Shown: positions 25,383-48,727, counted from the first letter of the stretch. The stretch is 64,000 nt of DNA from an uncultured Selenomonadales bacterium (GCA_900321035.1 ONUH01000002.1:124001-188000), one strand, 5' to 3'. The notes: generated by a model not told the origin, from the letters alone. Made by a program: numbers and translations.

Positions 25383-26426
25383 TCACTCCGTTACAGTCAT
25401 AATTTTCGCGAAATCCTCCGTTTTGTCCCGCATGATCAGAAGCCCTCGCTCCAAATCTGCCAGCGGCAAGCGATGCGAAATAATTTCCGCAGGCGAAATC
25501 GCACGCGTTTTCAGCAGCCGCAAAACCTCATGCCAATCGTCACCGTCCTCACCCGTAAACGAAGAATTCCATGTTCCTGTAACTGTGAGCTGCCTGCGCA
25601 AAATCTGCCAATACACATCCTTTTTCAGCGTCATATCCGAAGCAGGATTGCCGACAAAAACAACGCGTCCCGACGGCGCCGCGCAGGAGACGCCAAGCTC
25701 CACCGTTTCATTCCTTCCTACACACTCGAAAAAAATGTCTATCCCTTGCCCCTTGCTTTCCCTTGCCAGCCATGCCTGCGGATCTTCCGTCCGCGCATCA
25801 CAAAAAACGGCGTTTTCAACCCCTTCGGCAAACCGCCGCTGGCTATCCTTGTTGCCAATCAAAAGCAAACGTTTAACGCCCGACGCATGCAGCACCATCG
25901 TTAAAAGCCGCCCAATCGTTCCCAGGCCGCAAACCGCAATCGTATCTCCATTATGCAAAGTCACACGCCGCATCGCATGCACAGCCACCGCAAGCGGTTC
26001 CAACATAGCGGCTTCCTCAAACGATACCGTTTCCGGCAAAGCAATCAGATTTGCCGCGGGAACCGCGACATATTCCGCAAATCCTCCGTCCTGACGGGAA
26101 CCAAGATATCCGTACTGCCGGCACATCTCATACTGCTTTTTCTTGCAGGAAGGACACTCGCGGCACGGAATCAATGGAAACACTCCAACCTGCTTTCCCA
26201 GCCACTTTTTGTTTTCCTCGCTCCCCACCTGCTCCACGACGCCTGAAAACTCATGCCCCGGAATCAACGGATGGCGATGCGCGCCGGTTTTATAAATCCT
26301 CGGAATATCCGATCCGCAAATCCCCGCCGCCATGACGCGCACAAGCACCTCATCCATTTCCGGCTCAGGCTTCGCCACATCCTCAAAACGCAAATCGTTT
26401 ACCCCATATAAAACATAAGCTTTCAT
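25383..26426 (-). CDS. zinc-dependent polyol-phosphate dehydrogenase, TarJ-like
   Basis: A 347-residue medium-chain dehydrogenase. Catalytic zinc ligands lie in AGICGSDIPR and GHEFSG, the structural zinc in CRECPSCKKKQYEMC, and the NAD(P) Rossmann motif is GLGTIG. By sequence alone it could be a sorbitol or galactitol-1-phosphate dehydrogenase. The adjacent cytidylyltransferase, pentose-phosphate epimerase and CDP-polyol transferase favour ribulose-5-phosphate reductase (TarJ), yielding ribitol-5-phosphate; that is inference. The ATG at 26426 is used, 20 bases after a terminator. Confidence 0.75.
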   Translation of the reverse strand: MKAYVLYGVNDLRFEDVAKPEPEMDEVLVRVMAAGICGSDIPRIYKTGAHRHPLIPGHEFSGVVEQVGSEENKKWLGKQVGVFPLIPCRECPSCKKKQYEMCRQYGYLGSRQDGGFAEYVAVPAANLIALPETVSFEEAAMLEPLAVAVHAMRRVTLHNGDTIAVCGLGTIGRLLTMVLHASGVKRLLLIGNKDSQRRFAEGVENAVFCDARTEDPQAWLARESKGQGIDIFFECVGRNETVELGVSCAAPSGRVVFVGNPASDMTLKKDVYWQILRRQLTVTGTWNSSFTGEDGDDWHEVLRLLKTRAISPAEIISHRLPLADLERGLLIMRDKTEDFAKIMTVTE

Positions 26427-26445
26427 CTCACACCTCGCCGCCTGT

Positions 26446-26469
26446 AAAAAAGGACGGGCCGCCCCGTCC
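26446..26469 (-). terminator. intercistronic terminator between the TarI- and TarJ-like genes
   Basis: Minus strand: GGACGGG (26469-26463), loop GCGG, CCCGTCC (26458-26452), then six T. It ends 20 bases before the TarJ-like start, so expression of tarJ needs read-through or an unseen promoter. Confidence 0.82.
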
Positions 26470-26472
26470 GAT

Positions 26473-27192
26473 TTATTCCTTCTGCGCTTCCAACCAAGCT
26501 GAATATCGCTCCATATCGGCTGCCGTCGTGATCTTGAAATTAGCCTCATCGCCGGGAACCATCGCAATATCCAACCCCGCAAGAATCGCCGGCTCTGTCG
26601 CGCCATTGATGACAAGCATCTTGTCCCGCGGCAACGCCTCGTTTGCTTGTAAATATTTCCCCAACCTAAAAAACTCCGGCGCCTGTCCGGCAAAAATTTC
26701 GCTGCGCGGCAACAATTTTGACACCGTTTTTCCGTCGCGGCTCAAATACACGGTATCCTTCATCGGTAAAACGGGCATCACGCCGTCATGCTCATTCAAC
26801 GCGGCAAGACACTCCGAGATCAATCGGGCAGATAGGCAGGGCCGCGCCGCATCATGCACCATAACGACGTCGTCATCCTCTGCCCGGTTGGCGATATCCT
26901 GGAGTCCGGAAAGAATCGAAAGCTGCCGTGTCTCCCCCGGCGCGGAAAATCCGAAAAACTTTTCCCGGAAAGTATCGTCGTGAGAAAAAATCCATGATTC
27001 CATTTCCCGCACAATCGTCTCCCGCCACATATCGGCGGCGACAATCTGCACGGCGTCCATCGATGGATGGGAAAACACAGTCTCCATGCAGCGCGTGATC
27101 ATCATACGCCCATCGCAAGCCAGATATTGTTTTGGAACCTTCCCGCCCAAACGGCTGCCCGTCCCACCGGACAAAACAAGCGCAATATTCAT
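26473..27192 (-). CDS. IspD/TarI-family cytidylyltransferase
   Basis: A 239-residue nucleotidyltransferase with SGGTGSRLGGKVPKQYL (glycine-rich loop and catalytic Lys), VHDAARP, MPMKDTVY and LVINGATEPAI. IspD (MEP pathway) and TarI (CTP:ribitol-5-P) are close relatives; SGGTGSRLGG instead of AAGxGxRM, and the neighbours, favour TarI. An independent ispD would be expected elsewhere. The product CDP-ribitol, or a similar CDP-polyol, would feed the TagF-like transferase two genes upstream. A terminator follows immediately. Confidence 0.8.
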   Translation of the reverse strand: MNIALVLSGGTGSRLGGKVPKQYLACDGRMMITRCMETVFSHPSMDAVQIVAADMWRETIVREMESWIFSHDDTFREKFFGFSAPGETRQLSILSGLQDIANRAEDDDVVMVHDAARPCLSARLISECLAALNEHDGVMPVLPMKDTVYLSRDGKTVSKLLPRSEIFAGQAPEFFRLGKYLQANEALPRDKMLVINGATEPAILAGLDIAMVPGDEANFKITTAADMERYSAWLEAQKE

Positions 27193-27224
27193 GCCAATGT
27201 TGCCTGCCTTCTACACATAACCGC

Positions 27225-27887
27225 TCAAAACTCCAGCTTTCGTATCGCCGCCAGCGTTTCCCCGTACGGACGCTTTTTCCCGAAGAGAAGCGTCGTGCCC
27301 AGCACAAAACCTCTCACGCCCTTCGGCGCAAACTCGCGAATCTTGTCCGCGCTGCACGCCCCGTCCCAGTACACATCAAATCCCATCTGATCCTTCAACG
27401 CAAGCAACTTATTGTATTTTTCCCCGACATAGGGCAAATACATCTGCCCCGCATTGCCGGGATTTACCGACATCACCAATACCTTCTTCACGATGCGAAG
27501 CATCTCATAAACCGTCTCCACGCTCGTCCCAGGATTGATAGCAATGCCGGGAGTAATCCCAGCATCAATAACCTTCTGCAATGTTGTGGATGGATGGTAC
27601 TCCGCTTCCGGATGGATATAGATTGTATCCCCGGGTTTGAGTACATTGATGAAAAGGTGCACATTTGTATTCGGATGCTCAATCATCAGGTGAACGTCCA
27701 GAGGCTTCTTCGTCGCCGAGCGGATATACCGCATATCGTTGAGCGACATCGCATAGTTCGGCACATAGCGCCCATCCATGATATCGATATGGAAGGAATC
27801 AATGCCTCCTTCTTCCAGATCCCGAACTTCCTTCTCCAAATGCCCATAATTGGCGCACATCATTGACGCCATCAATTCAAAGTTCAT
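27225..27887 (-). CDS. ribulose-phosphate 3-epimerase-like protein
   Basis: A 220-residue TIM barrel of the Rpe family: ASMMCANYGHLEKEV, the metal/catalytic HIDIMDG, DVHLMI, and VNPGNAGQ phosphate loop. The usual late VDGGI motif reads WDGACSADKI, which departs from housekeeping Rpe and suggests a specialised, glycan-associated pentose- or hexose-phosphate epimerase. Position between the cytidylyltransferase and the CDP-polyol transferase suggests it supplies ribulose-5-P or xylulose-5-P; inference. Confidence 0.78.
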   Translation of the reverse strand: MNFELMASMMCANYGHLEKEVRDLEEGGIDSFHIDIMDGRYVPNYAMSLNDMRYIRSATKKPLDVHLMIEHPNTNVHLFINVLKPGDTIYIHPEAEYHPSTTLQKVIDAGITPGIAINPGTSVETVYEMLRIVKKVLVMSVNPGNAGQMYLPYVGEKYNKLLALKDQMGFDVYWDGACSADKIREFAPKGVRGFVLGTTLLFGKKRPYGETLAAIRKLEF

Positions 27888-27951
27888 TCCGATTCACCTT
27901 TTTCTGTCTCTTTCAAGAAGCGATTCCGATTCAAATGCTTCCCCAATTTTA

Positions 27952-29496
27952 TCACTTTTGAATCCCCAAAGCCATTACCACGCGCTCAGCACTACCATCA
28001 TCAAAATATGCATGAAATGCCTTCCGAAGCCGGATTCGCTTCTCTCGACTCCAATCATTGTCTTCTGACACATCTGCTATAAACCGACAAAAATCGTCAA
28101 AAGTGAACAATTCCTCGCCCGGTAAATAGTCTCGCACATTTGGCCAATTAAACCCGCGGCTATCGCCATATGTCTCGTAATCATCCAAAGTAAATGCAAT
28201 CGGCCTATCCAGTAACGCAAAGTCAATCGCCGCCGACGAATAATCACTGATGAGAGCGTCTGCATGGCCTAATATTTGATTAATCTGCACATCTTCCTGT
28301 CGTAAATCCTCATTCTCTAAAAAAAGGATATGAGACAAGGCGCACCGGCAAACAGCATTCCGTTTTTGGAACGGATGCAACTTCAAAAGCAAGACCATAT
28401 CCTTTTCTGCCAAACGTTGGTCCAGTTGCTCCAACATTTCCATAGATTGAACAATAGGAAGTCCCGTTTCTCCAGAAGCCGCTTCTTCATTTAAATTTTC
28501 TAATCCCGCCGTCCCCGCTGTGCGGAACGTCGGCAACCAAAAAATATACTTTGATGCTTTAGGGATATGGAATCGCTCACGCCAATCCTTGATTGGATGA
28601 AAAATCCAGTCATCCTTAGGATAGCCAGTTACCAATACTTGATCACGGCGCAAACCATAATCCCTCGCATGAAGCTCCGCGTACATATCCCCAATGACAG
28701 TCATATACTCATATCGTTTCTCACAAGGCGAAAAATAAACCCGGCGCTTAATGCCGCAGCCATGCCAAAGCTGAACCCGGACTTGGTCGTGTCGTGCATT
28801 TCTTGCAAAACCATACGCGTCGGTGAAAAAAATATATTTCGCAAGGCAAAGCGTCTCATAGTATTCATCCCGAACCGTTTCGTTCTCCGCTGTCGATCCG
28901 CTATACGGCAAGAAACGGACACGTGGATGCGTCGCATACCTCGCCTCGTATTCCGCTGGGTCATTTACGAGCCAAACCAACTCATATTTTTCATCGAAAC
29001 CTTCCCTCAACATATATTCAAATAAAGCGCGCGCGTTGTCGGCAAAATCCAGCCCCGGTACATAGCCGGAAGCGTGCGGCCCACTGCGAAAAAGAATCAA
29101 ATCCCGAAGCGGAACATCTTGATATTTTTTTCGATACGCTAAATCATACCGAGTTTCCTTATTGGGGTAAAAATAAATCCGTTGAAAGCGATTCCGCACC
29201 GATTGAATTGTTTGCAGCTGCTTATAAATCTCCCAAAAATAGTCGTCAGTAATTATGAGAATAGAATCATCTAGCAATCGTTCTAAAATATCAAAGCCAA
29301 CCACACTAATATTTTTCCCACGAAAAGAACAACTCCCCTGCCTGCGCTTTGCACTGTCAAAAGCGCTTGCAATACAGGGAAGAATGTCGAATGTATCGCA
29401 TAACTCATCCCAATATGCCTCGGAACGTCCAATAAGATACACCTTGGAATGCCTTATCACATCAAACACTTCGTGTGTAAAACGAATGAGTTCCAT
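27952..29496 (-). CDS. CDP-glycerol/ribitol glycerophosphotransferase family protein
   Basis: A 514-residue TagF/TarL-type polyol-phosphate transferase. The catalytic region (about 200-510) has QLWHGCGIKRR (His245), KLHPF (372-376) and ISDYSSAAIDFALLDRP (416-432). Residues 15-115 (KVYLIGRS...KNISVVGFDILERL...ILIITDD...RIYFYPNK) look like a degenerate copy of the Rossmann-like module in the neighbouring enzymes. It should transfer polyol-phosphate from a CDP donor to a glycan. Because the cell is probably diderm, the acceptor is more likely an O-antigen, capsule or protein glycan than a wall polymer. Confidence 0.82.
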   Translation of the reverse strand: MELIRFTHEVFDVIRHSKVYLIGRSEAYWDELCDTFDILPCIASAFDSAKRRQGSCSFRGKNISVVGFDILERLLDDSILIITDDYFWEIYKQLQTIQSVRNRFQRIYFYPNKETRYDLAYRKKYQDVPLRDLILFRSGPHASGYVPGLDFADNARALFEYMLREGFDEKYELVWLVNDPAEYEARYATHPRVRFLPYSGSTAENETVRDEYYETLCLAKYIFFTDAYGFARNARHDQVRVQLWHGCGIKRRVYFSPCEKRYEYMTVIGDMYAELHARDYGLRRDQVLVTGYPKDDWIFHPIKDWRERFHIPKASKYIFWLPTFRTAGTAGLENLNEEAASGETGLPIVQSMEMLEQLDQRLAEKDMVLLLKLHPFQKRNAVCRCALSHILFLENEDLRQEDVQINQILGHADALISDYSSAAIDFALLDRPIAFTLDDYETYGDSRGFNWPNVRDYLPGEELFTFDDFCRFIADVSEDNDWSREKRIRLRKAFHAYFDDGSAERVVMALGIQK

Positions 29497-29510
29497 GGGA
29501 AAACCTCACT

Positions 29511-30938
29511 TCAACTTTGCGCACGCATATATTCCGCAATCGCGTCCATGACCATCTCCGGCGTAATCGACCTCATGCATTCCGGCTCCGTCTGCTCCTT
29601 AGCGCAATGATTTAAATCCTCGTACAAGCCATGACATCCTGAACACTTCGGAGCAACAACATTGATATTCTGCGAATACCCGAAGAATTCAACAGGCGTC
29701 GGCCCAAACAACACGGCACATTTTGTCCCAAGCTGCGTCGCTAGATGCACAAGCCCGCCCTCAATATCGACATGAAGGATTGCATTTTTCAAGACATATT
29801 TGACAAGTTCCAGACTCTGTCCAAATAAATAATAGTCAACATTTGGGAACCGCTCTTTCCCTGTAGCCCCCAGTTGCACGATAGCAATATCCGGATAAGC
29901 TTCCTTAAACAAACGAACAAACGTAATAAACGCATTTACAGGCCATTGCTTCGGAAGTAAGCAAGCGTCGTCCATTGGGGAAATTCCGGTCTCACAGTTC
30001 ACGGTAATGTATTTCCCGAAATGCAATTCCTTATATTTTTCCTCAAATTCCCTCTGAAGCGGAATCTCGATCCGCCTGTTATCTTTATCGAAAAAATGCG
30101 AATACTGACTATAGGAAGCATAGTAGTCCATGCCTTGATACCGCATCCGGCCGTAATGAATGAAATTCTGTGTGAGATTCCCTTCGCCCAAGCCGTACGC
30201 TTTAATATTTTCAACCATCTCGGACACCATAGCAAAAAGGCGCGGGCTCTTTTTCTCTATCTCCTTGTCCCAGAAATCTACAGTTAATCGGGGATTGATG
30301 GAAGATATTGCCAAGGCATAACGATGCATATATTTCTGGTACAACACCCCCGCATCGTCAATAATGCAGTTGAGATTGGGATGATTTCCATAGACTGCCA
30401 TGATATAGTCCGATGCGTAAGGCGCATAAATATCGAAAACACAATTCGATTCAATGCGCAGGAGCTCATCAAACACCTTCCTGCGGACAATCAAGTCCCC
30501 CAACGCCGCACTCAACCGCATCGCGACCGGAATGCGCCCTTCCTGATGAAATGCCAGTTCTCGTTCCGGCACCGCTATACTTTCCACATTTTCCATGCAT
30601 ACGGAAACCTGCTTTCGAGCTCCCACATACACGATTTTCTCCCAAGGAACCCCATACTGTTCCAACGTCCTTCGGATAGACTCCACATAAACGGCCGTTT
30701 TCATCGCAATGACGACATAATCAAAGCTTATATTTCGCACCGCTTCCGGTGGAAATATTGGAACAACGGTCAGCGGACACTTATCATAAGCACGATCCAA
30801 AAAACCGATACATTCGCAATACCCAGTCATCAATATCTGCGTCAAGTAATCATGCCCGACATCCCCCGCACCGTAAATCAAGATGCGAGAGCCAGACGGT
30901 ATTTTTTCAAACGGGAAAAGATAGCTGAAGTCGGCCAA
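29511..30938 (-). CDS. GT9 (heptosyltransferase-like) enzyme with N-terminal Rossmann module
   Basis: A 475-residue protein. Residues 1-115 are the locus-specific module (FSYLFPFEKI, RILIYGAGDVGHDYLTQI, YDYVVIAMK, KIVYVG); the remainder is GT-B family 9, with LGTKCAVLFGPTPVEFFGY and the C-terminal cysteines CSGC...C...PECM. The frame is open to a TTG at 31010, but the TTG at 30938 has AAGGGGG upstream and aligns with the starts of sister proteins. Sister of the 32610-34025 protein. Substrate unknown. Confidence 0.78.
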   Translation of the reverse strand: MADFSYLFPFEKIPSGSRILIYGAGDVGHDYLTQILMTGYCECIGFLDRAYDKCPLTVVPIFPPEAVRNISFDYVVIAMKTAVYVESIRRTLEQYGVPWEKIVYVGARKQVSVCMENVESIAVPERELAFHQEGRIPVAMRLSAALGDLIVRRKVFDELLRIESNCVFDIYAPYASDYIMAVYGNHPNLNCIIDDAGVLYQKYMHRYALAISSINPRLTVDFWDKEIEKKSPRLFAMVSEMVENIKAYGLGEGNLTQNFIHYGRMRYQGMDYYASYSQYSHFFDKDNRRIEIPLQREFEEKYKELHFGKYITVNCETGISPMDDACLLPKQWPVNAFITFVRLFKEAYPDIAIVQLGATGKERFPNVDYYLFGQSLELVKYVLKNAILHVDIEGGLVHLATQLGTKCAVLFGPTPVEFFGYSQNINVVAPKCSGCHGLYEDLNHCAKEQTEPECMRSITPEMVMDAIAEYMRAQS

Positions 30939-31047
30939 CCATATCCCCCTTTTCCAGCATATAGCTTTTTCTGGGACATAAGAACCCAAATTCTCTTCCG
31001 AAGGATGCAATTACGAACTTGACCGCTGTGTAATCAATAATTACCTA

Positions 31048-32556
31048 TTATTGATGTGATTTCAGATAACGCTTGTCATCCACATCCAGGATTTTATCTT
31101 TTGGTATGCCAAACCCAATGCACGCCTGATAAATCTGCTCATAATAATCCGTACTGCAAATAAGTATTTTATCGAAAACAGCCTCTGCTATCTCTGATGG
31201 TTTCATATAGAGCCCCCCGAAGCCTTCATCCGGTACTTTGTAGCTGTCGGTTACACCGATAACTTCAAACTCCCGCTGTATCCATCTCCACAAATCCCCG
31301 AACCGCTTGCCCATACCATAAACGATAACTTTTTCCTTGGACGCCTCTCTTCGCGTTATTTCATCCATCATATTGTTTAACGCCTGCAACCTCTTGTTCC
31401 ATCTGCCAAGACCTATCTCACAAACCTCTTTCCGACATGGTGCGTCAATTGCAATCGGCAGAATAACGTCATCGGCATTCTCAAAAGAATACTTGTCCTT
31501 ATTGGCAAATGTCAATTCGTAAGTATCGGGAAACACCATCCCGTCAATATAACATACCCTGCCATAATTATTCGCATGAACATGAATAAGCTCGTGGGTA
31601 ATGCTTATCTTTTCAAGCGCTTTCAGCAATTTAACCGGATCACTTAATACGTTGTGAAATTCAAACACCATCTGATTAAATCGCTTCAGGACTGCCGATG
31701 CAGTCATCTCGAGAAATCCGTACTCGGCTCCTTCCACGTCCATTTTTAATACCATGTGCTTTTTTTCGGAATGCTCGTTCATTTCTATAAGATGAGCTAA
31801 CGTATCGTATTGTTTCCCTACCGCTTCAAATGTGTCGGCTATCCCTATTTTAAAAAAGAAGAATGAGGGAGACTCATAAGGCAACGCGGAAATTGTCGGG
31901 TCGTACATAAACACCTTATATCCCAAATCGGCTATCGCGGCATCCCATGTAACATCATTGGATATGCCGAAAGAATATGCCGTTTTCTCCCCCCCTGAAA
32001 AATCGTCCAGCATGACATAACCGCCATCGTTGGCATTTCCCATTCTGACAAGCCCAAACCCCTTAACCTTCTTCAGCGCCATAAGCGTTTGTATTTCCAG
32101 AAATTGTCTTAACTTCTCTGTCGAGGACGGCTTCTCCATATCATAGGATGTCATATACGCCCCCTGCCTCATAGATTGAAAACCCTCCGGCATTTCGACC
32201 ACACAAACCCTATCATCGTACATAATATTTCCATCGGGGATCCCAATCCGTCGTAAATATTCCCGCATTTCTTCCGCAACGACTCCAGATTGAGCAGCAA
32301 TGACAATTTTCCTGTGCTCGCCCTCCAATGCAGTCAACGCCAATATAGGCACACCAATATTTACTCCCGCCAGTTCCCTGTATTTGATATCTACCACATA
32401 AGCGATCCTGCAATACGACTCGCGCATAACCTGCGCTATATATTGCCGTCCGACAAGCCCTGCCCCGTAAATCACAATTTCGCTCCCCGGCTCAATTTCT
32501 CTATACGGGAAGGGATGCCATTCATAGATTGAGGTTCTCACAGTCCTTACAACCAC
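31048..32556 (-). CDS. FkbM-family methyltransferase flanked by two Rossmann-like modules
   Basis: A 502-residue three-part protein. Residues 13-120 carry the locus module (PFPYREIEPGSEIVIYGAGLVG). The middle (about 145-370) is an FkbM methyltransferase, with YSFGISNDVTWDAAI and VLKMDVEGAE (269-278). Residues 405-495 are a second nucleotide-binding-like module (KVIVYGMGKRFGDL...FDKILICSTD...KILDVDD). It should O-methylate a sugar of the glycan. The start is unclear: GTG 32556 or GTG 32541. Confidence 0.75.
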   Translation of the reverse strand: MVVRTVRTSIYEWHPFPYREIEPGSEIVIYGAGLVGRQYIAQVMRESYCRIAYVVDIKYRELAGVNIGVPILALTALEGEHRKIVIAAQSGVVAEEMREYLRRIGIPDGNIMYDDRVCVVEMPEGFQSMRQGAYMTSYDMEKPSSTEKLRQFLEIQTLMALKKVKGFGLVRMGNANDGGYVMLDDFSGGEKTAYSFGISNDVTWDAAIADLGYKVFMYDPTISALPYESPSFFFFKIGIADTFEAVGKQYDTLAHLIEMNEHSEKKHMVLKMDVEGAEYGFLEMTASAVLKRFNQMVFEFHNVLSDPVKLLKALEKISITHELIHVHANNYGRVCYIDGMVFPDTYELTFANKDKYSFENADDVILPIAIDAPCRKEVCEIGLGRWNKRLQALNNMMDEITRREASKEKVIVYGMGKRFGDLWRWIQREFEVIGVTDSYKVPDEGFGGLYMKPSEIAEAVFDKILICSTDYYEQIYQACIGFGIPKDKILDVDDKRYLKSHQ

Positions 32557-32609
32557 CCTTCTATACTTATGCGCGGAGTGCGCCCAAAAAACTGCCTTTG
32601 ATCTGTATA

Positions 32610-34025
32610 TTATCGTTTCTTTATATTATTGTCCTCATCCACAAAACACTCTATCTTCTGCATCACCCGTTCAGGAGCAATCGACCACATACATTCCGGC
32701 TTTTCCAACCCACGGTAGCAACTATAACAGTCCATCGGGAGCCAACAGCAATTAGAACAGGTTTCCGACAAGATATTGATATTATCCCGATAAGCGTAAT
32801 AATGGATGGGCGTCGGCCCGAAAAGCACGACGCATTTTGTCCCAAGCTGTGTTGCTAGGTGCACCATGCCGCCTTCGCAATCCACATGCAACATGGCGTT
32901 TTTGAGGACATACTTTATCAGTTCAATGCTTTCGCCAAATATGTACTTATCCATCCCCGATATTTTCGGCGTATCTCGCAATCCTATCTGCACAAGACTG
33001 ATACGAGGATATCTGGACTTGAACAACTTGGCTAGCTGGGAATAATACTCCAATGGCCAAACCTTAGCCAATATCACATTATCATTGTTCTTTGGTTTAT
33101 CAGCGCCGTAATTAAATATCACATATTCACCAAGATGCAAATTGCGAAACGGCTCGCGAAACTCGTCAAGCATAGGAATGCTAACATTTACATCCTTAAC
33201 ATTGAATTCTTTATAACGATTGTACGACGTATAGCAATTCAGCCCATCTTTTTCACAACGTGCGAAATGAATCGCCCACGGAATCTCCCCATACGGATAA
33301 TATTTTGTTACTCGCTCCTTTACGGTAACAATAATTTCCCGCAGTAAACCTGCTGCTGCTAAACTCTCCTCGTTGATTGAGTCAACTACAAGTGCCGCCG
33401 TGAAAAGAAACGCAGCCAAATATTCCTTCTTCTTTACATGGTATATCCAAAGATTTCCAATAATCCCGTGAATATGTGGCACATCAGAGAAAAGCACTTT
33501 CGCGTATTCGAGCATTTTGCTCTCCACAAAAATATCTATTATGACATTTTCATCCCATTGGACAACTTCTCTTACTTTATTCTTTGCGATAATGTAATCC
33601 CCAAACCCGCCGTTCAGTCTTATTGCTATTGCATACTTGCCTTTTCCCTCGATAGCGAGGCTTGGAAAGTCATCCATTTTGCCTTCAATTTTCTCTATCG
33701 GCCTAACATATTGTATATCATAAACCATTTTCTCCCGCGGGACGTGGTATTGCTCTTGCAGCATCCGTATAATCGCTTTTGCTGTTTTTTCATTTTCATT
33801 TGCCACAACAACAACATCATAATCCAGTGTCTCGATAATTTCTACCGTTGCCACCTGCACAGGAAGCATCTGATACAATTCCGCATCGCGGTCTATCATG
33901 CAAACGATCTCGCAATACTTCGTCATCATGACCTGTTGCAAATATGTCTGTCCTGACATCCCCGCACCATAAATAATAATCCGCGCATCCCTCTTTACGG
34001 ATTTGAAGGGAAATAAGAATTCCAT
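32610..34025 (-). CDS. GT9 (heptosyltransferase-like) enzyme with N-terminal Rossmann module
   Basis: A 471-residue protein built like its neighbour at 29511-30938: module 1-115 (MEFLFPFKSV, RIIIYGAGMSGQTYLQQV, YDVVVVANE, KMVYDI) then GT family 9 with LGTKCVVLFGPTPIHYY and C-terminal CSNCC...C...PECM. The two probably arose by duplication and now differ in specificity. The ATG at 34025 follows GAGGGAG. Codon use is AT-rich. It presumably adds a sugar to the locus glycan. Confidence 0.8.
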   Translation of the reverse strand: MEFLFPFKSVKRDARIIIYGAGMSGQTYLQQVMMTKYCEIVCMIDRDAELYQMLPVQVATVEIIETLDYDVVVVANENEKTAKAIIRMLQEQYHVPREKMVYDIQYVRPIEKIEGKMDDFPSLAIEGKGKYAIAIRLNGGFGDYIIAKNKVREVVQWDENVIIDIFVESKMLEYAKVLFSDVPHIHGIIGNLWIYHVKKKEYLAAFLFTAALVVDSINEESLAAAGLLREIIVTVKERVTKYYPYGEIPWAIHFARCEKDGLNCYTSYNRYKEFNVKDVNVSIPMLDEFREPFRNLHLGEYVIFNYGADKPKNNDNVILAKVWPLEYYSQLAKLFKSRYPRISLVQIGLRDTPKISGMDKYIFGESIELIKYVLKNAMLHVDCEGGMVHLATQLGTKCVVLFGPTPIHYYAYRDNINILSETCSNCCWLPMDCYSCYRGLEKPECMWSIAPERVMQKIECFVDEDNNIKKR

Positions 34026-34069
34026 TTTCTCCCTCGCCTCGCTTTAATCAGAAAATACCAACATTTTTT

Positions 34070-35713
34070 CTATACTCTATCCCTGTAAAACTCGATTCCG
34101 CTAACGCACGGATCGTCAAATACGGGATCATCGAAAAACTCCCTATATTCCGGTTTCAGGCACCCAATCCCCTCATCCTCGCACAGAGTTATATCCCGTG
34201 AAAACTCTTCCCTTGTATAGGTTCCAAGATTGCTTATCCGCAAAAAAGCAATCGCGTCGCAATGCCATTCTTTCCCAAGCTCCACGAATCGCTTCATGTC
34301 TCTGTAATTTTTCTGTTGTACGACAAAACTAATTGCGAGATGACTCACTTCTCCCTGTCGCCTTAATTCAGCGGCCCTCCGCATGTTGCTGACTATTGTT
34401 TCCCATTTCCCGCCTCTTCTGACCTGCTCGTATATCTCCTTTGATGCTGCGTCGATACTGAACGACAGTCTGATATCCTTATATCCTTCGCGCAGGAGTC
34501 TCCAGTTTTTCTCATTGAACAGCATCCCGTTGGACAGAATCTGTATTTTCTTTCTCTTTTTTCCCGTCGTATTGATCCAAATTTTTCTATACAGCGGGCT
34601 GTAAAACACTTCTCCCATTCCGGCGATAAAAAGCAAATCCGCGTGAGGTAGAAAATCTCTGCTGATTTTATCCGCAAGCAGCTCGTATCTTTTGTATTCC
34701 TCTTCCGTCGTGCGGTTGTACTCCTTGCGACAGGACTCGCACCAAAGGTTACATGTAGTATCTATGGCAACCGACGGCATCGGCGGATATGGTTTTCCCT
34801 TGTTATCATAGTCGCCGTCTGCAAACGTTACATCCTTATACTCTATATTCCCTTCGCTTTTAAAAAGCAATATGCATTTTTTCCGGTTGCAAAAAGAAAA
34901 GGTGTGATTCACAAATGACAACTTCAATATCCTCGCGCTGTATGAGTTCCATTCATCCAGCGCGCTCTCGCTGCGGAACAAATTTCCCATGGGCATACGT
35001 ATGTACACACCGCAACAAGACCATATCCTCCCATCCGGCCCAATATCAATTTTCGTCATCCCTTTAAGACATCTAATATTCTTCATAGGCCTGTCATGAA
35101 TGGTTTTCCATAACATCCTAGAAGGCCACTCTTCCAACAACGGGGAATCAGCCATAAAATAATCATTCCCCGCGCGAAGACCTTTCGCTTTTAGGAAGGT
35201 TTCGATTTCTTCACGATGATCATTTCTTAGCACGATTATAAACACACAAATTTCTTTCCATGAGGTTACCTGATCTGGATTGAATACAGGCTTGCCCAAA
35301 AATTTCGTGCCACGAAGCGACGGATTGTTGTCGATATAAAAATCGCAAAGATATTCCCGCTCAAAACGCAAAGCAAAATCGCCGCAACCCCAAAAAGCGA
35401 TTTTGCGCCCAACGGGAATAACAGGCAGTCCAACCGCGCTGTCCATTTTTAAGAAAAACTCCATTGCCGATATATAATCTCTGCCGTGTTTCATGCCACG
35501 CCGAGTCAATTCCCGTTCGGCAGCTTCCTCATCGTATGCGCATAAAACGATAAGCCCGTCCATTTGTTCAAGCTTGGATGCCTCATTCAGAAGAACGCAC
35601 TCATATCCCCCCCCAATAGACAAGATGTCACTGCATACATATTCGACTTCTTTTATGAATCGTTGATCCCCAAAAAGAACTATCCGCTGTTCTTGTTTGT
35701 TGTCGTCACTCAT
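34070..35713 (-). CDS. radical SAM protein with extra N-terminal cysteine region and Rossmann-like module
   Basis: A 547-residue protein. The first 180 residues contain two Rossmann-like stretches (RIVLFGDQRF and RKIAFWGCGDFALRF...FYIDNNPSLRG). Then comes a SPASM-like cysteine region (RCLKG...WSCCG...FCNRKKC, about 215-280) and only after it the radical SAM core DTTCNLWCESC (Cys321, 325, 328), with AGMGEVFYSP and ILSNGMLF. SPASM domains normally follow the core. It may modify a sugar or a peptide linked to the glycan. The ATG at 35713 has GAGGA upstream. Confidence 0.75.
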   Translation of the reverse strand: MSDDNKQEQRIVLFGDQRFIKEVEYVCSDILSIGGGYECVLLNEASKLEQMDGLIVLCAYDEEAAERELTRRGMKHGRDYISAMEFFLKMDSAVGLPVIPVGRKIAFWGCGDFALRFEREYLCDFYIDNNPSLRGTKFLGKPVFNPDQVTSWKEICVFIIVLRNDHREEIETFLKAKGLRAGNDYFMADSPLLEEWPSRMLWKTIHDRPMKNIRCLKGMTKIDIGPDGRIWSCCGVYIRMPMGNLFRSESALDEWNSYSARILKLSFVNHTFSFCNRKKCILLFKSEGNIEYKDVTFADGDYDNKGKPYPPMPSVAIDTTCNLWCESCRKEYNRTTEEEYKRYELLADKISRDFLPHADLLFIAGMGEVFYSPLYRKIWINTTGKKRKKIQILSNGMLFNEKNWRLLREGYKDIRLSFSIDAASKEIYEQVRRGGKWETIVSNMRRAAELRRQGEVSHLAISFVVQQKNYRDMKRFVELGKEWHCDAIAFLRISNLGTYTREEFSRDITLCEDEGIGCLKPEYREFFDDPVFDDPCVSGIEFYRDRV

Positions 35714-35746
35714 AGCCGTCCTCACACCTTCTCGGCCTATCACGGA

Positions 35747-37717
35747 TTAGACGATCCCCTTCGTCTGTTGCAGACAGAATGTGTCATGCGTTTCCTGTAA
35801 AATCTCGATAAATCGCTCAAAACTGCCCGACCTGCGCTCCTCCATGAGCTCTTTCATCAGCTTGCTTTGTCGCGCGTAAAGCACAGGGTCTCCAGCCAAC
35901 CGCTCTATGTAATGCATCAGGTCATCATATCCGCCCTTGATGCGGTTTTCGGAATGAAGATGCACCGTCACATCCGAAGACCATTCCCCCGTAACAATCG
36001 GCAATCCTTCCAACATTGCCAATCTCAAGCTGACGCCGCCGCCCATTCTCTCAGGGTTCAAGCAGGCGTCGCAAATCTTATACAACGCAGGCAAATCCTC
36101 CTCCCAGCCTCGAAGGATGATCCGCCCTTGTTCCAACAAATCTTTATGGTTTCGCACCACATCGCCAATATCACCACTATATACTAAAAGCCATTTAATA
36201 CGGCGGGTACGCCTCAGCATATTTGCCACACTCGCTACAAATCGCGGCGAAAGTTCAACGTCCAGCCGAAGCCCGACGGTTACAACTACGAAATCCTCTT
36301 CATTGAGCCCAAATTCCTTCCGCTTATAACTTTTATTCTTCAGATATTTCAAAAAGGGAACTCCCGACCCCACTCTCTCAACGATTTTTTCTTCGGGTAT
36401 AGAATTAAATATACGGTTCATTTCCATACAATATTGCTTATTCCCCGTAATATAGGCATGAGCGAAAATCGCTGTCTGCGCACCTCTCATAGACATGAAG
36501 ACGGACGGATAATACTTTGCGATGACATACGACAAGAGAAACCGATCATCTGTATAATATACAACCACATCAGGGCCAAATTGAGCCATCTGATCTAAAT
36601 AATACTCTGCCTTATTTTGCAAAGGCAGCTTATACATACAATGTACAGAGATTCCCTTGCTATAACAGTTACGTTCCCGCTGATACATAGCGTAAGAGCC
36701 GTCATCCTCATGTATGCCCTTTTGACCCAAGGGCTGCCAAATATATGCCTTTGTCTCGTCTTCATCAAAAAAATCGCTATCAAAATCAAAAAGTGCAACC
36801 TCATATCCACGCTCACACAATTCATTCATCAGCGGTAAGACGGCGCCAATAGAATATCGAATACTACTTAACAATGGTATACAAAAAGCAATGCGCCGTA
36901 TAGGTTTCTCCACTAACGTCCCAGTCTTTGGATACATGGTAAGCCCGGATTTATCAAAGATTTGAACAGCCGCCCGCCGAAAGTCATGATAATATTCTGG
37001 ATAGCGCAATTCCTTATGTGCAGACAGGCTAAGCGAAATCATGAGCGCAAGACGGTGCAGCATCGCATACCCGTCCTGCCACCTTGGCATCATTGTCGCA
37101 ATGTCCAGCATGAGCTTTACAAGATCACCATCAAACACGTCGGCCAAATCAAGCCTCTGAAGCAACGTAGCTTTTTCCTCTGTCGTCAGAAAAGCCTTAT
37201 CAAGCAATACCTCCTTCAATCGACGAACAATGTCGGCGGTTCCACATTCCCGCAGATATATCACAGAAGGCCAAAGCATATCGGCCCTTTTTTCTTCACA
37301 TGCGCAATATGCAGACAATAGCTTTTTCAATTCTCTCGTATTGCCAAATATCCGCTCATAATCCTCATTCGCTGATAAATAGCTTGGCAATGCGTCTTCT
37401 CCTGCCCGAAGTATTTTGTTCTCATTGGCACCTGCTACCAACATATCCCGCCGCACGGCCGCAGCCGTTGCGTCGTCATGCAAAGCAATCAAAAGATGAT
37501 CATACTCTAATTCTTCCCATTCAACCTCATCAGGATGCAAGACCTTTATCGGCCAATTCTCGTAGTCCTCAGCCAATCGATCAACGGCAAACAGAACATA
37601 ACAGTAACTCGTTTGCTTTATCTGGGCTAAAAACTGTTGACCAACATCCCCGCAACCATAAATGATAATTTTCTCACCCGGCTTTATTGCACCAAAAGGA
37701 AAAAGATACGTCGCCAA
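35747..37717 (-). CDS. glycosyltransferase (GT-B) with N-terminal Rossmann module
   Basis: A 656-residue protein: module 1-115 (ATYLFPFGAIKPGEKIIIYGCGDVGQQFLAQI, YDHLLIALH, KILRAG), a helical middle (about 120-270), and a C-terminal GT-B enzyme with RRIAFCIPLLSSIRYSIGAVLPLMNELCERGYEVALFDFD and the donor-side DACLNPERMGGGVSLRLAMLEGLPIVTGEWSSDVTVH. The start is a TTG 8 bases after GGAGG. It likely transfers a sugar in glycan assembly; donor and acceptor are unknown. Confidence 0.72.
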   Translation of the reverse strand: MATYLFPFGAIKPGEKIIIYGCGDVGQQFLAQIKQTSYCYVLFAVDRLAEDYENWPIKVLHPDEVEWEELEYDHLLIALHDDATAAAVRRDMLVAGANENKILRAGEDALPSYLSANEDYERIFGNTRELKKLLSAYCACEEKRADMLWPSVIYLRECGTADIVRRLKEVLLDKAFLTTEEKATLLQRLDLADVFDGDLVKLMLDIATMMPRWQDGYAMLHRLALMISLSLSAHKELRYPEYYHDFRRAAVQIFDKSGLTMYPKTGTLVEKPIRRIAFCIPLLSSIRYSIGAVLPLMNELCERGYEVALFDFDSDFFDEDETKAYIWQPLGQKGIHEDDGSYAMYQRERNCYSKGISVHCMYKLPLQNKAEYYLDQMAQFGPDVVVYYTDDRFLLSYVIAKYYPSVFMSMRGAQTAIFAHAYITGNKQYCMEMNRIFNSIPEEKIVERVGSGVPFLKYLKNKSYKRKEFGLNEEDFVVVTVGLRLDVELSPRFVASVANMLRRTRRIKWLLVYSGDIGDVVRNHKDLLEQGRIILRGWEEDLPALYKICDACLNPERMGGGVSLRLAMLEGLPIVTGEWSSDVTVHLHSENRIKGGYDDLMHYIERLAGDPVLYARQSKLMKELMEERRSGSFERFIEILQETHDTFCLQQTKGIV

Positions 37718-43720: not shown

Positions 43721-46237
43721 TTAACGTGATAGCACGTAATGAAGGATATTGGCTCCACATAAATCAAAAGCAACTTTTCGTTCTTGCCGTTCTCCCACAA
43801 GATTAAAAAATGTCTCATAAAAATCTTCAAGACCAGATGTATGGGTTAACTGAGGTTCATATACTATTTCATTCGGGGACAGCGATTTTTTTAAACTCTT
43901 TGAAAAAAAATCTACCATTTCTCTATAATCGTCAGTTGTTTGAAAAATCTCTGCCATCGTTGCCTTTTTTGTCGATTTGTCAATTCGGATGAGATATTTC
44001 CCTTGATTCGGATACAGTAAAATCTCATTGCCACGCTTCGCTAAAGACGGATAACCTATATCTATTTCACCCCCTAAGTATCCTCGATGCATTTCGATTT
44101 CGCCTGTGTGAATATTTATACAGGCAAAATCGTCTTTATTCGAAGAGATTACCCATAAGCAGCCGTCATCCCACAGGAGTCCAGCTGAAGCCCTTCTGTC
44201 ACCAAATAAATTCTCATACGTCCGAAGGATTGTTTGAGTACCGTCCCATTGCAACAAATCACCATTTTGGGAATATATCCAAAAAGATGAACCATCAAAA
44301 GTCATCGTCTCAAACTTATAGCTCGACGCGCCTATAGAGTAAATTAGATGCGTTTTTTCTTGTGTATCAAAACAAATCACCTTATTTCCCAATCGGAACG
44401 TAAAGTACAATTTTGTTCCAACAAGTGCGTCGCCGCCAAAAAGAGGTCCTTCCTCATTGCCAATCTCTTTCTCGATTTCCCTGAACCAATCAGAATAATA
44501 AAAAATTTGAGCATTATGAGGGGTGAACGACACAATCGCATGCGCACAATATGGTTTTAGCCATATCTTATTATCTATAAGATGCGCATTTGTAAACTGT
44601 GGTCCGGCTGTTTGAATTTTTGTCTCATCAAGTAGAAAGCAGCCCCATTTTTTCTTTCCAATTTCATACGACAAAATATTTTTTCCATTCGTGGGAATAA
44701 AATAAAAAACGCCATTATATTCAATGATTTTACTATATAAGAATCTTGTTGCTATTTCTTGATTCGGGAAAAAGTCGATACGTTTCGTATCAGTCCAATC
44801 CTCTCTCACTCGAAACAGTCCGTTGGTATTCCACGCAGGGAAATAAAAACCGTCTTCTTTATGTACTCCACTGACAAAGTTCAAACAGAGAATATCTTCC
44901 TGTGTAACATCAACTGTGGTTATATCCTCAATAATCACAGGCTTACCGGTCTTTCGGTACAACTCAACTACGCTGCTGCCATCACCATAATATGCATTGC
45001 TTAAAACGATGGCTCGATTCATATCCGCACTGTCATCGTAAATTCCCCAGCCTTCCGCGTTATACCGCGTAACGATTCCATCATATTCTTCTGCCAACTC
45101 AGGGCGCATTGATTTCAACGTGGCCTGCAGGAGAGGGTGAGGGCGCCAAAGGAGCGCTACTTCATCTTGATGTTCTTGAAAAGTCCTAAATACTTGACGG
45201 ATTTTCGCAAGCATCTTTTCATTATGTTGAAGCATGGCGGAAAGCCCAGTGTTATAAAAGACAATCTTTTTCCAGCTTCCATCGGGCTTCTGGATAATCT
45301 TCAGCCATTCATCAGGAATGTCTAACTCTTCTTGCTTTGTCATAGCCACTTTGTCAAACTTCGGCGAGCCCATTCCCAATATCCGCTTTTCCCAAAAGGT
45401 GCGTTCCGTTTGATTCGTCCGTTTTGTCAGCACGTCAATATAAACCCGCCGCATAGCTTCGGACTGGACGATAACTTGATGCGCATTTAACACCGCCGGT
45501 GTCGTAACAAAGTGCGCAATGCCCTCTTCCATCGTTTCGATTTCTTCCTCGCTCTTGCCTTCAAACTCCGGCTCGGCTAAGACGAAATAAGGGATGTAGA
45601 CCAGCTTGTCTGTTTGGCCCTTTAATTTACTGGAAAAGTATCTGCTTTCCACAGACGTGACACGATTATATTCGTCATACGGATTATGAATAAAAATGAC
45701 GTCAGGGGTTATTTCCTCCAAATTGAAGTCTTCCCATTTCACCGTCGGCACGTCTTTCGGGAATTGGTCCCTTTCGCAGTGCCACTCCGCAACGGTGTGC
45801 TCTGGCGTGAGATCGGCGTAAGGAATCGGCATGACGTAGGCGATGCAGTGCGCCTTGTCCTCGTCCGCCGCTCTCCAGACGCTTTCAAGGCTGTCCCACA
45901 TGCTGGCTTTATAGGGCAAGAAGAAGATTTCTTTTTTGAAGGAGGTTTCCTTTTGCGTTTGCGTAATCATATATTGCAGCAAGTCGCTGCACAGGGAGAC
46001 AATCTCGTCTTCGTCCGGCGCGTCTGTCGCCAACTGTTCCAAGGCAAGCAATAGTCCGTCGTATGTGTCCTTATACTCAGCAAAGCGACTCTCGGAAAGC
46101 CCCCGAAAACACAAATCGCGTGCCTGCAGGAGCGCATTGCGCATCGCATTCAGGTCACGCGAATGAAAGGGCGGCATGGCGTGCAAGCCGTCCTGGACGA
46201 TGTTCAGTTGTTTGAGCAATCGTTCCTTGATCGCCAT
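43721..46237 (-). CDS. CDP-glycerol-transferase-like protein with C-terminal beta-propeller-like region
   Basis: An 838-residue protein, first gene of the glycan operon. Residues 100-440 look like a TagF-type GT-B fold (KEIFFLPYKASMWDSLES, FIHNPYDEYN, LGMGSPKFD, LLWRPHP at 362-368, and YGDGSSVVELYRKTGKPV at 417-434 in place of SDYSS). Residues 440-800 contain repeated strand patterns such as KVICFDTQEKTHLIYSI, SFWIYSQNGDLLQWDG and CLWVISSNKDDFACI, resembling a beta-propeller. The combination is unusual. Polyol-phosphate or sugar transfer is plausible, not shown. Confidence 0.62.
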   Translation of the reverse strand: MAIKERLLKQLNIVQDGLHAMPPFHSRDLNAMRNALLQARDLCFRGLSESRFAEYKDTYDGLLLALEQLATDAPDEDEIVSLCSDLLQYMITQTQKETSFKKEIFFLPYKASMWDSLESVWRAADEDKAHCIAYVMPIPYADLTPEHTVAEWHCERDQFPKDVPTVKWEDFNLEEITPDVIFIHNPYDEYNRVTSVESRYFSSKLKGQTDKLVYIPYFVLAEPEFEGKSEEEIETMEEGIAHFVTTPAVLNAHQVIVQSEAMRRVYIDVLTKRTNQTERTFWEKRILGMGSPKFDKVAMTKQEELDIPDEWLKIIQKPDGSWKKIVFYNTGLSAMLQHNEKMLAKIRQVFRTFQEHQDEVALLWRPHPLLQATLKSMRPELAEEYDGIVTRYNAEGWGIYDDSADMNRAIVLSNAYYGDGSSVVELYRKTGKPVIIEDITTVDVTQEDILCLNFVSGVHKEDGFYFPAWNTNGLFRVREDWTDTKRIDFFPNQEIATRFLYSKIIEYNGVFYFIPTNGKNILSYEIGKKKWGCFLLDETKIQTAGPQFTNAHLIDNKIWLKPYCAHAIVSFTPHNAQIFYYSDWFREIEKEIGNEEGPLFGGDALVGTKLYFTFRLGNKVICFDTQEKTHLIYSIGASSYKFETMTFDGSSFWIYSQNGDLLQWDGTQTILRTYENLFGDRRASAGLLWDDGCLWVISSNKDDFACINIHTGEIEMHRGYLGGEIDIGYPSLAKRGNEILLYPNQGKYLIRIDKSTKKATMAEIFQTTDDYREMVDFFSKSLKKSLSPNEIVYEPQLTHTSGLEDFYETFFNLVGERQERKVAFDLCGANILHYVLSR

Positions 46238-46399: not shown

Positions 46400-47431
46400 T
46401 TACAAATCTTGCGTCTTGATGCCCGATTCTTTCATGAACTTCGCCAGCTTCGTGACGCTGTCCATCAAATCGGTGTAATTCTCCGGCGTCAGCGACTGCG
46501 GCCCGTCGGAAAGAGCCTTGGCCGGGTTCGGGTGCATTTCCATGATCAAACCGTCCGCGCCGCAGGCGACGGCGGCGAGGGCCATCGGCTTGATGAAGCG
46601 CCATTTGCCGGTGCCGTGGCTCGGGTCCACGATAATCGGCAGGTGTGAAAGGTGCTTGATAGCGGCGACGGCGGAAAGGTCGAGGGTATTCCGCGTATAG
46701 GTCTCGTAGGTGCGGATGCCGCGCTCGCAGAAGATGACGTTCGGATTGCCTTCGTTCAGGATGTATTCGGCAGCGTTCAGCCACTCGTCGAGGGTGGCGG
46801 CGAGGCCGCGCTTCAGCATGACGGGCTTCTGGGTGCGGCCGACTTCCTTCAGCAAGCGGAAGTTCTGCATATTGCGGGCGCCGATCTGCAAGAGGTCGGC
46901 GTATTCGGCGACAGTCTCGACGGCGTCGACCTCGGTGACCTCGGTGACGATGCGGAGGCCGGTCTTTTCCTTCGCTTCCGCAAGATATTTGAGGCCTTCT
47001 TCTTCCAATCCCTGGAACGAGTACGGCGAAGTGCGGGGCTTATAGGCGCCGCCGCGCAGGAATTGGGCGCCGCCCTTTTTCGCGATTTCGGCGGCTTCGA
47101 GAAGCTGCTCGCGGCTCTCGACGGCGCAGGGGCCCGCCATCACGACGAATTCGTCCCCGCCCACCGGCACGCCGTCCACGTCGATGACGCTGGACTGGGG
47201 ATGGAATTCGCGGCTGGCCAGCTTGTAGCTCTTCGAGATGGAAACGCTGCGCTCGACGCCCGGCAGCGCGTCGATGGCGCAGGAGGCAAGGCGCGTCTTG
47301 TCGCCGATGACGCCGACGATGCGCTGCTGGGAGCCCTCCATGACCTTCGCGGAAAGGCCCGCGTCCTGGATCATTTCGATGACACCCTTGATATTTTCGG
47401 CGGTGGCGTCGGGATTCATGATGATAACCAT
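46400..47431 (-). CDS. aroF: 3-deoxy-7-phosphoheptulonate synthase (type I-beta)
   Basis: A 343-residue enzyme condensing PEP and erythrose-4-phosphate, the first step of aromatic amino acid synthesis. An N-terminal ferredoxin-like regulatory domain (1-70) precedes the barrel with VMAGPCAVES, KPRTSPYSFQG, LLQIGARNMQN, MLKRGL and IVDPSHGTGK. The N-terminal domain usually mediates feedback control in this subtype. It follows pheA on the same strand; a heptamer-repeat dyad separates the two. Transcription from the pheA T-box promoter is likely. Confidence 0.95.
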   Translation of the reverse strand: MVIIMNPDATAENIKGVIEMIQDAGLSAKVMEGSQQRIVGVIGDKTRLASCAIDALPGVERSVSISKSYKLASREFHPQSSVIDVDGVPVGGDEFVVMAGPCAVESREQLLEAAEIAKKGGAQFLRGGAYKPRTSPYSFQGLEEEGLKYLAEAKEKTGLRIVTEVTEVDAVETVAEYADLLQIGARNMQNFRLLKEVGRTQKPVMLKRGLAATLDEWLNAAEYILNEGNPNVIFCERGIRTYETYTRNTLDLSAVAAIKHLSHLPIIVDPSHGTGKWRFIKPMALAAVACGADGLIMEMHPNPAKALSDGPQSLTPENYTDLMDSVTKLAKFMKESGIKTQDL

Positions 47432-47589: not shown

Positions 47590-48432
47590 TTATTTTTCCA
47601 GCACCGGAAACCTTCCCAAGTCCTTGAGCCAGATGCTTTTCTGTCGCACGGCTTCGATGGACGCCTCCAGCGGCTCGCGGGATTTTCCCGCCTCGATTTC
47701 GAGGTCGAAGAAAAAGATGTAGACGCCGAGGCCGGTACGGGCCGGGCGCGAGACGATGCGCGTCATGTTCACGCCGCGGCCGGCGAATTCCTCCAGCACG
47801 GCGCAAAGGCTGCCCGCCCGCGCGCCGTCGATCTGGCAGACGATCAGCGCGCGCCCGCCCTTCGATTCGTCCACCACGGGGACGGGGCGGCGGCGCAGCT
47901 GGTAAAACCGCGTGGAATTCGTCATGCTGTCCTGGATCTCCGTAGCGACGGCGGAAAGGCCGTACAGCTCCCCTGCCCGCGCCGTGCATATGGCCGCCGC
48001 GCCCGGCTCGCCCTTCGAGACGATCTCGGCGGCTTTCGCGGTGCTCTCGGTAGCGACGAGCTTCGCTTTCGGAAAGTGCTCCTTCAGATAGCCGCGGCAT
48101 TGCGCCAGCGGCTGCGGATGCGAATAGATGGCGTGGATCTCGGCGGCAGCGTCCTTCGCCATGAGCTGGTTGTGGATGTCCCAAATCAGCTCGCGCTCGA
48201 TGGCGAGGTCGTCGGCTTGGGCCAGCGTGTCCATCGTCACGTTCACCGCGCCCTCCAGCGAGTTTTCCACCGGCACGACGCAGGAATCCACTTCCCCGTC
48301 GGCGGCGGCCTGCATCACCGAAAAAATATCCGGATACGGGCGAAGCTCCGCGCCGCCGATTTTGTCGCTGAGGAACATCGCGGCCGCCTCGCTGTGGGTG
48401 CCCCGCGGCCCCAGAAAACCTAATGTCTGCAA
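47590..48432 (-). CDS. pheA: prephenate dehydratase with ACT domain
   Basis: A 280-residue enzyme converting prephenate to phenylpyruvate. The catalytic domain has GFLGPRGTHSE, VPVENSLEGAV, YSHPQPLAQC, ESTAKAA and NSTRFY (the Thr-Arg-Phe motif); the ACT domain (about 190-260) should bind phenylalanine. The ACT signature ESRP reads VSRP here (NMTRIVSRP), which may weaken feedback inhibition. The start is a TTG at 48432 with GGAGGG upstream; the ATG at 48465 lies inside the T-box terminator hairpin and is rejected. Confidence 0.93.
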   Translation of the reverse strand: MQTLGFLGPRGTHSEAAAMFLSDKIGGAELRPYPDIFSVMQAAADGEVDSCVVPVENSLEGAVNVTMDTLAQADDLAIERELIWDIHNQLMAKDAAAEIHAIYSHPQPLAQCRGYLKEHFPKAKLVATESTAKAAEIVSKGEPGAAAICTARAGELYGLSAVATEIQDSMTNSTRFYQLRRRPVPVVDESKGGRALIVCQIDGARAGSLCAVLEEFAGRGVNMTRIVSRPARTGLGVYIFFFDLEIEAGKSREPLEASIEAVRQKSIWLKDLGRFPVLEK

Positions 48433-48440
48433 CTTATCCC

Positions 48441-48727
48441 TCCTAACAAAAAAAGTCCCGTCCATGAAAGGACGAGACTTCCTCGCGTTACCACCTTATT
48501 TATCCGCCGAAGCGGATCGCTCAGTTCCGACGGGTCTATAAAAACCGATCGGCCTCCCCTCATAACGGCAGGGACTCCGGCATCGCCTATTGCGTTTTCA
48601 CGCGTTCAGCGAGCGGCTCACAGGCGAACTTCCTCCGCGCATCCCCGGCCGGCTTCCAGCTGCCCCGGCTCTCTGTGCGCTTCCGCGCGGCATACTTTTC
48701 CTGTTCATTGCCATTTTCGATATGATT
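48441..48727 (-). ncRNA. T-box leader, phenylalanine-specific
   Basis: Minus strand: an AGTATGC S-turn-like element, AGAGAGCCGGGG with GCTGGAAGCCGG of stem I, GAAGTTCGCC giving specifier TTC (Phe), then the T-box AAGGTGGTAACGCG (48497-48484) whose TGGT bulge matches the ACCA end expected for tRNA-Phe. A terminator stem AAGTCTCGTCC/GGACGGGACTT with seven T (about 48480-48444) follows. Uncharged tRNA-Phe should permit pheA expression. Confidence 0.9.

Follow-up and report, generated by a model that had tools for sequence, protein, structure and literature searches.

Gene content of the locus

The window analysed here is a stretch of 64,000 nucleotides from an uncultured Selenomonadales bacterium (GCA_900321035.1, ONUH01000002.1:124001-188000). 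Six consecutive genes on its minus strand (27952-37717) carry seven copies of one Rossmann-like module of about 105 residues. In order of coordinates these genes encode a TagF/TarL-like CDP-polyol phosphotransferase (27952-29496; PF04464, E 2.5e-49), a GT9-like glycosyltransferase (GT9a, 29511-30938; PF01075 at E 0.0011, below the cut-off), an FkbM-type methyltransferase with a module at both ends (31048-32556; PF05050 at the cut-off), a second GT9-like glycosyltransferase (GT9b, 32610-34025; PF01075 above the cut-off), a radical SAM/SPASM-like enzyme (34070-35743; PF04055 at E 7e-10, PF13186 just below the cut-off) and a group 1-like GT-B glycosyltransferase (35747-37717; PF13692 at E 1.5e-4, below the cut-off). 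Compared along its length, GT9a shares 37% identity with GT9b.

The genes on either side are untagged, by which we mean that they carry no module. One flank holds an IspD/TarI-like cytidylyltransferase, a zinc alcohol dehydrogenase and a ribulose-phosphate-epimerase-like protein; the other holds a WecE-type transaminase, a methyltransferase, a glyoxalase-like protein and FkbH, GNAT and WbqC proteins. These neighbours are genes for precursors or small modifications. The combination of an IspD/TarI-like cytidylyltransferase, an alcohol dehydrogenase and a pentose-phosphate-epimerase-like gene beside the TagF-like gene (25383-29496) suggests a CDP-polyol precursor pathway.

Elsewhere in the window, an 838-residue protein (43721-46237) has no match in Pfam, NCBIfam or the PDB; inspection of the sequence by eye hints at a glycerophosphotransferase-like part in the first half and a beta-propeller-like one in the second. 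A T-box leader (48465-48717; Rfam E 1e-24) lies upstream of genes for prephenate dehydratase (47590-48465) and DAHP synthase (46400-47431).

Strong and divergent copies of the module

Four copies, all on the minus strand as are the other three, are strong and can be aligned pairwise, with blastp E-values between 2e-11 and 3e-24 for alignments of 41-104 residues. They form the N-termini of GT9a (30615-30929; FPF type, profile A3 E 3e-37), the FkbM methyltransferase (32209-32520; profile E 4e-26), GT9b (33711-34025; profile E 1e-33) and the GT-B protein (37397-37714; profile E 2e-30). The initial annotation had proposed a common N-terminal module for precisely these proteins, and the motifs it quoted are present. 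A profile of the four strong copies, run against the whole 2.4 Mb genome, recovers exactly those four, all inside 8 kb; at this sensitivity the genome contains no fifth strong copy.

The weaker copies were assessed with a divergent-type profile, built from 127 divergent copies of other genomes and including no sequence of the window. It confirms the second copy that had been noticed at the C-terminus of the FkbM protein (31084-31377; E 2e-13, hhalign 97.9%). For the radical SAM protein a weaker copy had likewise been claimed, and it exists (35162-35410; E 1.5e-11, hhalign 98.2%), but it occupies approximately residues 100-185 of the N-terminal part rather than the extreme N-terminus. The first 100 residues of this protein were tried separately: they appear unrelated by the strong-type profile, reach 29% with the divergent-type profile and were not counted. 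The copy suspected at the N-terminus of the TagF-like protein (29206-29454) is the most divergent and remains tentative. It is detected with the divergent-type profile (hmmsearch 6e-4; hhalign 90.9%, E 1e-6) but unsupported by the strong-type profile (1.7%), and is for that reason the least certain of the seven.

In a scan of the whole window the divergent-type profile finds only these same six proteins significant, with the next match (E 0.8) falling on the zinc alcohol dehydrogenase, and 14 control segments of other window enzymes stay at or below 2% in hhalign; the two profile types are not independent, because the divergent copies were collected with the strong-type one. Divergent copies keep the first two glycines of the module at 95-97%, and the Asp less well.

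Predicted fold and conserved pocket

AlphaFold, given a 90-sequence alignment, predicts the GT9a module to be an alternating beta-alpha, Rossmann-like domain (pLDDT 93). The FkbM N-terminal module reaches a pLDDT of about 75-93 across most of its length, and the secondary structure predictions of these two modules match element by element. When the whole FkbM protein was predicted from eight sequences, its C-terminal copy stayed at a pLDDT under 50, so that the fold of this copy is taken from profile comparison.

Among the matches listed (Foldseek, VIA-align 2), the top structures are 2g6t (Z 11.4), 3nkl (11.1) and Rex (10.3), together with succinyl-CoA synthetase alpha (10.1), WbaP 8t53 (10.1, with an rmsd of 3.1 over 98 residues) and PerB (9.6). 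The best sequence match among structures is 3nkl (E 6e-6). Several of the nearest solved structures are nucleotide or CoA binders. Judged from the predicted model, the module belongs to the fold class of the nucleotide-binding domains of PglD_N, the WbaP DUF, Rex and succinyl-CoA synthetase alpha. Its size and context mark the module as non-catalytic, and its predicted fold is of the nucleotide-binding type.

Across 142 non-redundant modules, conservation amounts to 99% for G23 and G25, 96% for G28 and 96% for D48, where strand 2 ends, with the caveat that the profiles used to collect the homologues favour this pocket motif. Conservation of the GxGxxG...D pattern is about equal between N- and C-terminal copies and across all enzyme classes. 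An N-terminal arm of the form F-P-aromatic is conserved at 81-92% in both N- and C-terminal contexts; outside the core of the module the consensus is variable. Conservation of the pocket motif could also serve folding instead of binding.

A PglD-type acetyltransferase binds UDP through its N-terminal domain, in which one Asp comes within 3.2 A of the hydroxyls of the ribose and the next Asp is placed at the uracil (PMC8040287). We read D48 as the equivalent of the ribose Asp. The following position, which is the uracil-binding Asp in the PglD type, is mostly Lys or Arg in the module, which makes UDP in this pose an unlikely ligand. On this mapping, which is our own, any ligand that the module may have is probably something other than UDP held as in the PglD type.

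Module architectures and tagged loci

The module is found together with GT2, GT9, GT8, GT4, GT90, FkbM, TylF and other methyltransferases, radical SAM, LicD, TagF, Capsule_synth and deacetylase domains. It is N-terminal on GT9, FkbM and TylF, C-terminal on GT2, GT8 and LicD, and at either end on radical SAM proteins. The position described initially was N-terminal; among relatives a C-terminal one is just as frequent.

Stand-alone modules exist as well (for example L046:6527-6907), and one protein from a Selenomonadaceae glycan locus (L033:3369-5096, minus strand) consists of three tandem modules (residues 139-243, 285-390 and 430-533) with no recognised enzyme domain. Three Lachnospiraceae proteins of 137-168 residues (L098:7450-7875, L105:6035-6538 and L106:7668-8078) combine a divergent module with a similar N-terminal extension and possibly form one conserved stand-alone family. 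At L034:3474-6701, an 866-residue GT4 protein with three modules and an adjacent 209-residue protein have closely related C-terminal modules, likely the result of a recent gene-to-gene copy.

In 82 loci, 341 of the 633 tiled ORFs (54%) have a strong or divergent copy, a figure that describes these loci and is no unbiased rate, because they were chosen for at least one copy and the ORFs were tiled mechanically. The longest run comprises ten consecutive genes. These loci strengthen what was noticed in the window, namely that consecutive, unrelated glycan enzymes share a non-catalytic module; many of their genes have none. One row of ten tagged genes (L054:2-13503) encodes, according to Pfam, a SPASM protein, a deacetylase, a methyltransferase, two GT9-like proteins, a radical SAM protein, FkbM, TylF and two unknown proteins. 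Pfam finds no dehydrogenase among these ten, nor among ten tagged genes from L063 and L068.

Tagged enzymes and untagged precursor enzymes

The leading families among those listed for 110 tagged proteins, which were picked by their strong copies, are GT2 (53), GT9 (14), FkbM (8) and GT8 (7). For 138 untagged same-strand neighbours in the same loci the leading families are nucleotide-sugar epimerases or dehydratases (11), nucleotidyl transferases (9-11), DegT aminotransferases (5), UDP-glucose dehydrogenases (4) and GT2 (9). Precursor-type matches amount to 29 among the 138 untagged proteins, presuming that the four precursor families never overlap within one protein, against none among the listed families (the best 25 of 30) of the 110 tagged proteins (Fisher 1.6e-8). 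Because the tagged families are the best 25 of 30, including three CTP_transf_like proteins, we also applied a pessimistic bound of 8 precursor-type proteins in 110, for which the Fisher test gives 0.004. Within the loci, the module occurs on transferases and on enzymes that modify the glycan, here called acceptor-side enzymes; enzymes that make nucleotide-sugar precursors have it rarely or not at all. The tagging pattern of the window agrees with this rule.

Taxonomic distribution

Strong copies are present in 52 of 189 genomes of the window's family, which to judge by its relatives is Selenomonadaceae, and in 56 of 397 Lachnospiraceae genomes. A 300-genome sample of the window's class gave 35 positives, all in the window's own family, and 291 genomes sampled from the class to which the Lachnospiraceae genome belongs gave 3, all already within the Lachnospiraceae set. 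At E 1e-12, the sampled genomes of the two classes contain no strong copies outside these two families, and the idea of a universal family was rejected at this threshold and within this sample.

The module tree is based on just 112 columns and is for that reason poorly resolved; the two families are intermingled on it (28 changes, against 38 when shuffled). This fits exchange among bacteria that would have gut and rumen habitats in common. Changes of enzyme class on the same tree, which speak for mobility of the module, number 34 (minimum 20, shuffled mean 60). A search of phages and plasmids with GT9a matched the catalytic part only and never the module. Without its module, this catalytic part is 27-30% identical to hypothetical proteins encoded by large Caulobacter phages, such as one of Caulobacter phage CcrBL9 (MH588546.1, 122990-123604) and those of related phages.

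Relation to known systems

PglD_N (PF17836), the N-terminal domain of PglD/NeuD/VioB/PerB acetyltransferases, and the module are alike in their Rossmann-like fold, glycine-rich loop and Asp after strand 2. The window copies score at most 16.8 bits and are below the gathering threshold of 23.4 bits, and some relatives reach 25.8-28.0 as a whole-protein score. The module differs in its extra FPF arm, in the Lys or Arg at the uracil-binding Asp and in its many unrelated partner enzymes; the left-handed beta-helix acetyltransferase domain is found neither in the tagged proteins of the window nor in the families listed for the 110 relatives.

The WbaP DUF (PF13727, 8t53) resembles the module in its fold and in its accessory place on a glycan enzyme. 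This domain binds uridine nucleotides, holds most of the dimer contacts and has been assigned a regulatory role (PMC10942596). The members of the module examined, however, lack a phosphoglycosyl transferase domain, many enzymes per locus carry the module, and the window proteins give no sequence match to PF13727 at E up to 1.

The closest structures, the N-terminal domains of 2g6t (Clostridium acetobutylicum) and 3nkl (Vibrio fischeri, deposited as UDP-quinovosamine 4-dehydrogenase), are only 17-20% identical to the module. C2185-like_N (PF22674) is a family described without a function. The FkbM C-terminus and many relatives match it with scores under its cut-off of 27 bits, which none of the members scanned individually attains (20.8 at best in the window, for the FkbM C-terminus, and 26.4 at best among relatives). 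A Gfo/Idh/MocA or SDR catalytic domain does not follow the module, its partners being transferases, methyltransferases and radical SAM enzymes. Published fusions of this kind were not found in the open-licence papers searched. The fold and the nearest families are known; for a single module common to most acceptor-side enzymes of a locus, those papers gave no earlier description.

Discussion

The explanation we prefer, with a probability of about 50%, is that a mobile non-catalytic Rossmann-like module marks acceptor-side enzymes, holds a nucleotide-type ligand and self-associates into a shared assembly. What the analysis shows is a common sequence, a fold class, a pocket motif kept in all enzyme classes, mobility, and occurrence on acceptor-side enzymes. 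The conserved pocket would hold a nucleotide or a similar ribose-containing ligand, and module copies would pair with one another. The transferases for one glycan, together with the enzymes that modify it, would thereby sit in a shared assembly, the association or activity of which would depend on the bound ligand. We infer the ligand binding, the contact between modules and the effect on activity, partly by analogy with the WbaP DUF, whose nucleotide binding and dimerisation may carry over to the module. The acceptor-side restriction, the rows of consecutive tagged genes and the protein with several modules favour an assembly, and conservation of the pocket motif favours a ligand; it is this evidence together that leads us to the combined reading. 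Stand-alone modules and the three-module protein, which has no recognised enzyme domain, suit an assembly role. Against it counts that TagF, FkbM and radical SAM enzymes have no common substrate or product, and that many genes of the loci are untagged. Modules of different enzymes in the same locus are slightly more alike than within-class permutations, a degree of likeness reached by 40 of 1000 (p about 0.04). As this signal is weak, strict partner specificity is disfavoured, and co-adaptation within loci was rejected as proof of pairing. A more elaborate version can only be offered tentatively: here the module would be an assembly tag, whose copies pair mutually and with multi-module proteins that lack an enzyme, gated by a bound nucleotide; a glycan would come from such an assembly line, and enzymes would be exchanged through recombination of the tag.

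Each half of this combined reading might also account for the data by itself. The module could be a nucleotide sensor only, as proposed for the WbaP DUF, in which case each enzyme would be regulated separately by one and the same nucleotide, such as the UMP, UDP or CMP that transferases set free, and no assembly between enzymes would be needed. The fold match to WbaP speaks for this, as its DUF is stabilised by UMP, UDP and UTP and UMP inhibits the full-length enzyme (PMC10942596); so do the conservation of the pocket motif whatever the enzyme class and the tendency of modules to follow enzyme class more than locus. Against it, methyltransferases, radical SAM enzymes and a deacetylase are tagged although they set free no nucleotide of this kind, stand-alone modules and the three-tandem protein have no enzyme of their own to regulate, and the Asp that binds uracil in the PglD type is not kept. 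We regard a sensor without assembly as rather unlikely, although it should be taken seriously. The reverse would be a former nucleotide-binding fold that has become a scaffold, bringing consecutive enzymes to one carrier-bound acceptor purely by protein-protein contact. Up to ten consecutive tagged enzymes, the enzyme-less three-module protein, the restriction to acceptor-side enzymes and the FPF arm conserved in both contexts could all be understood in this way, but docking would not need a near-invariant GxGxxG and Asp, and similarity within loci is weak. Pure docking therefore appears unlikely to us.

The initial annotation itself raised the alternative of a widespread catalytic domain with an incidental fusion; the module would then be an ordinary catalytic Rossmann domain, a fragment of a dehydrogenase or acetyltransferase. 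Sub-threshold matches to GFO_IDH_MocA and PglD_N speak for this. The domain has only about 105 residues, however, the members scanned contain no catalytic partner domain of those families, and it occurs at either end of many unrelated folds as well as in stand-alone and tandem form. Moreover, precursor enzymes, including the true dehydrogenases of the same loci, are rarely or never tagged. We consider this explanation very improbable.

A shared module on unrelated surface-glycan enzymes suggests that these enzymes are kept together, or that one signal switches them all. The general question behind this is how separate, soluble surface-glycan enzymes act in order on one scarce carrier, for which a shared tag would give a handle. 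If the ligand-dependent assembly is true, pull-down of one module should recover the others, and the ligand should reveal the signal that governs the pathway. The module is also a natural model for building enzyme assemblies, and in the glycan loci of Selenomonadaceae and Lachnospiraceae it offers a prediction of which uncharacterised genes act on the acceptor.
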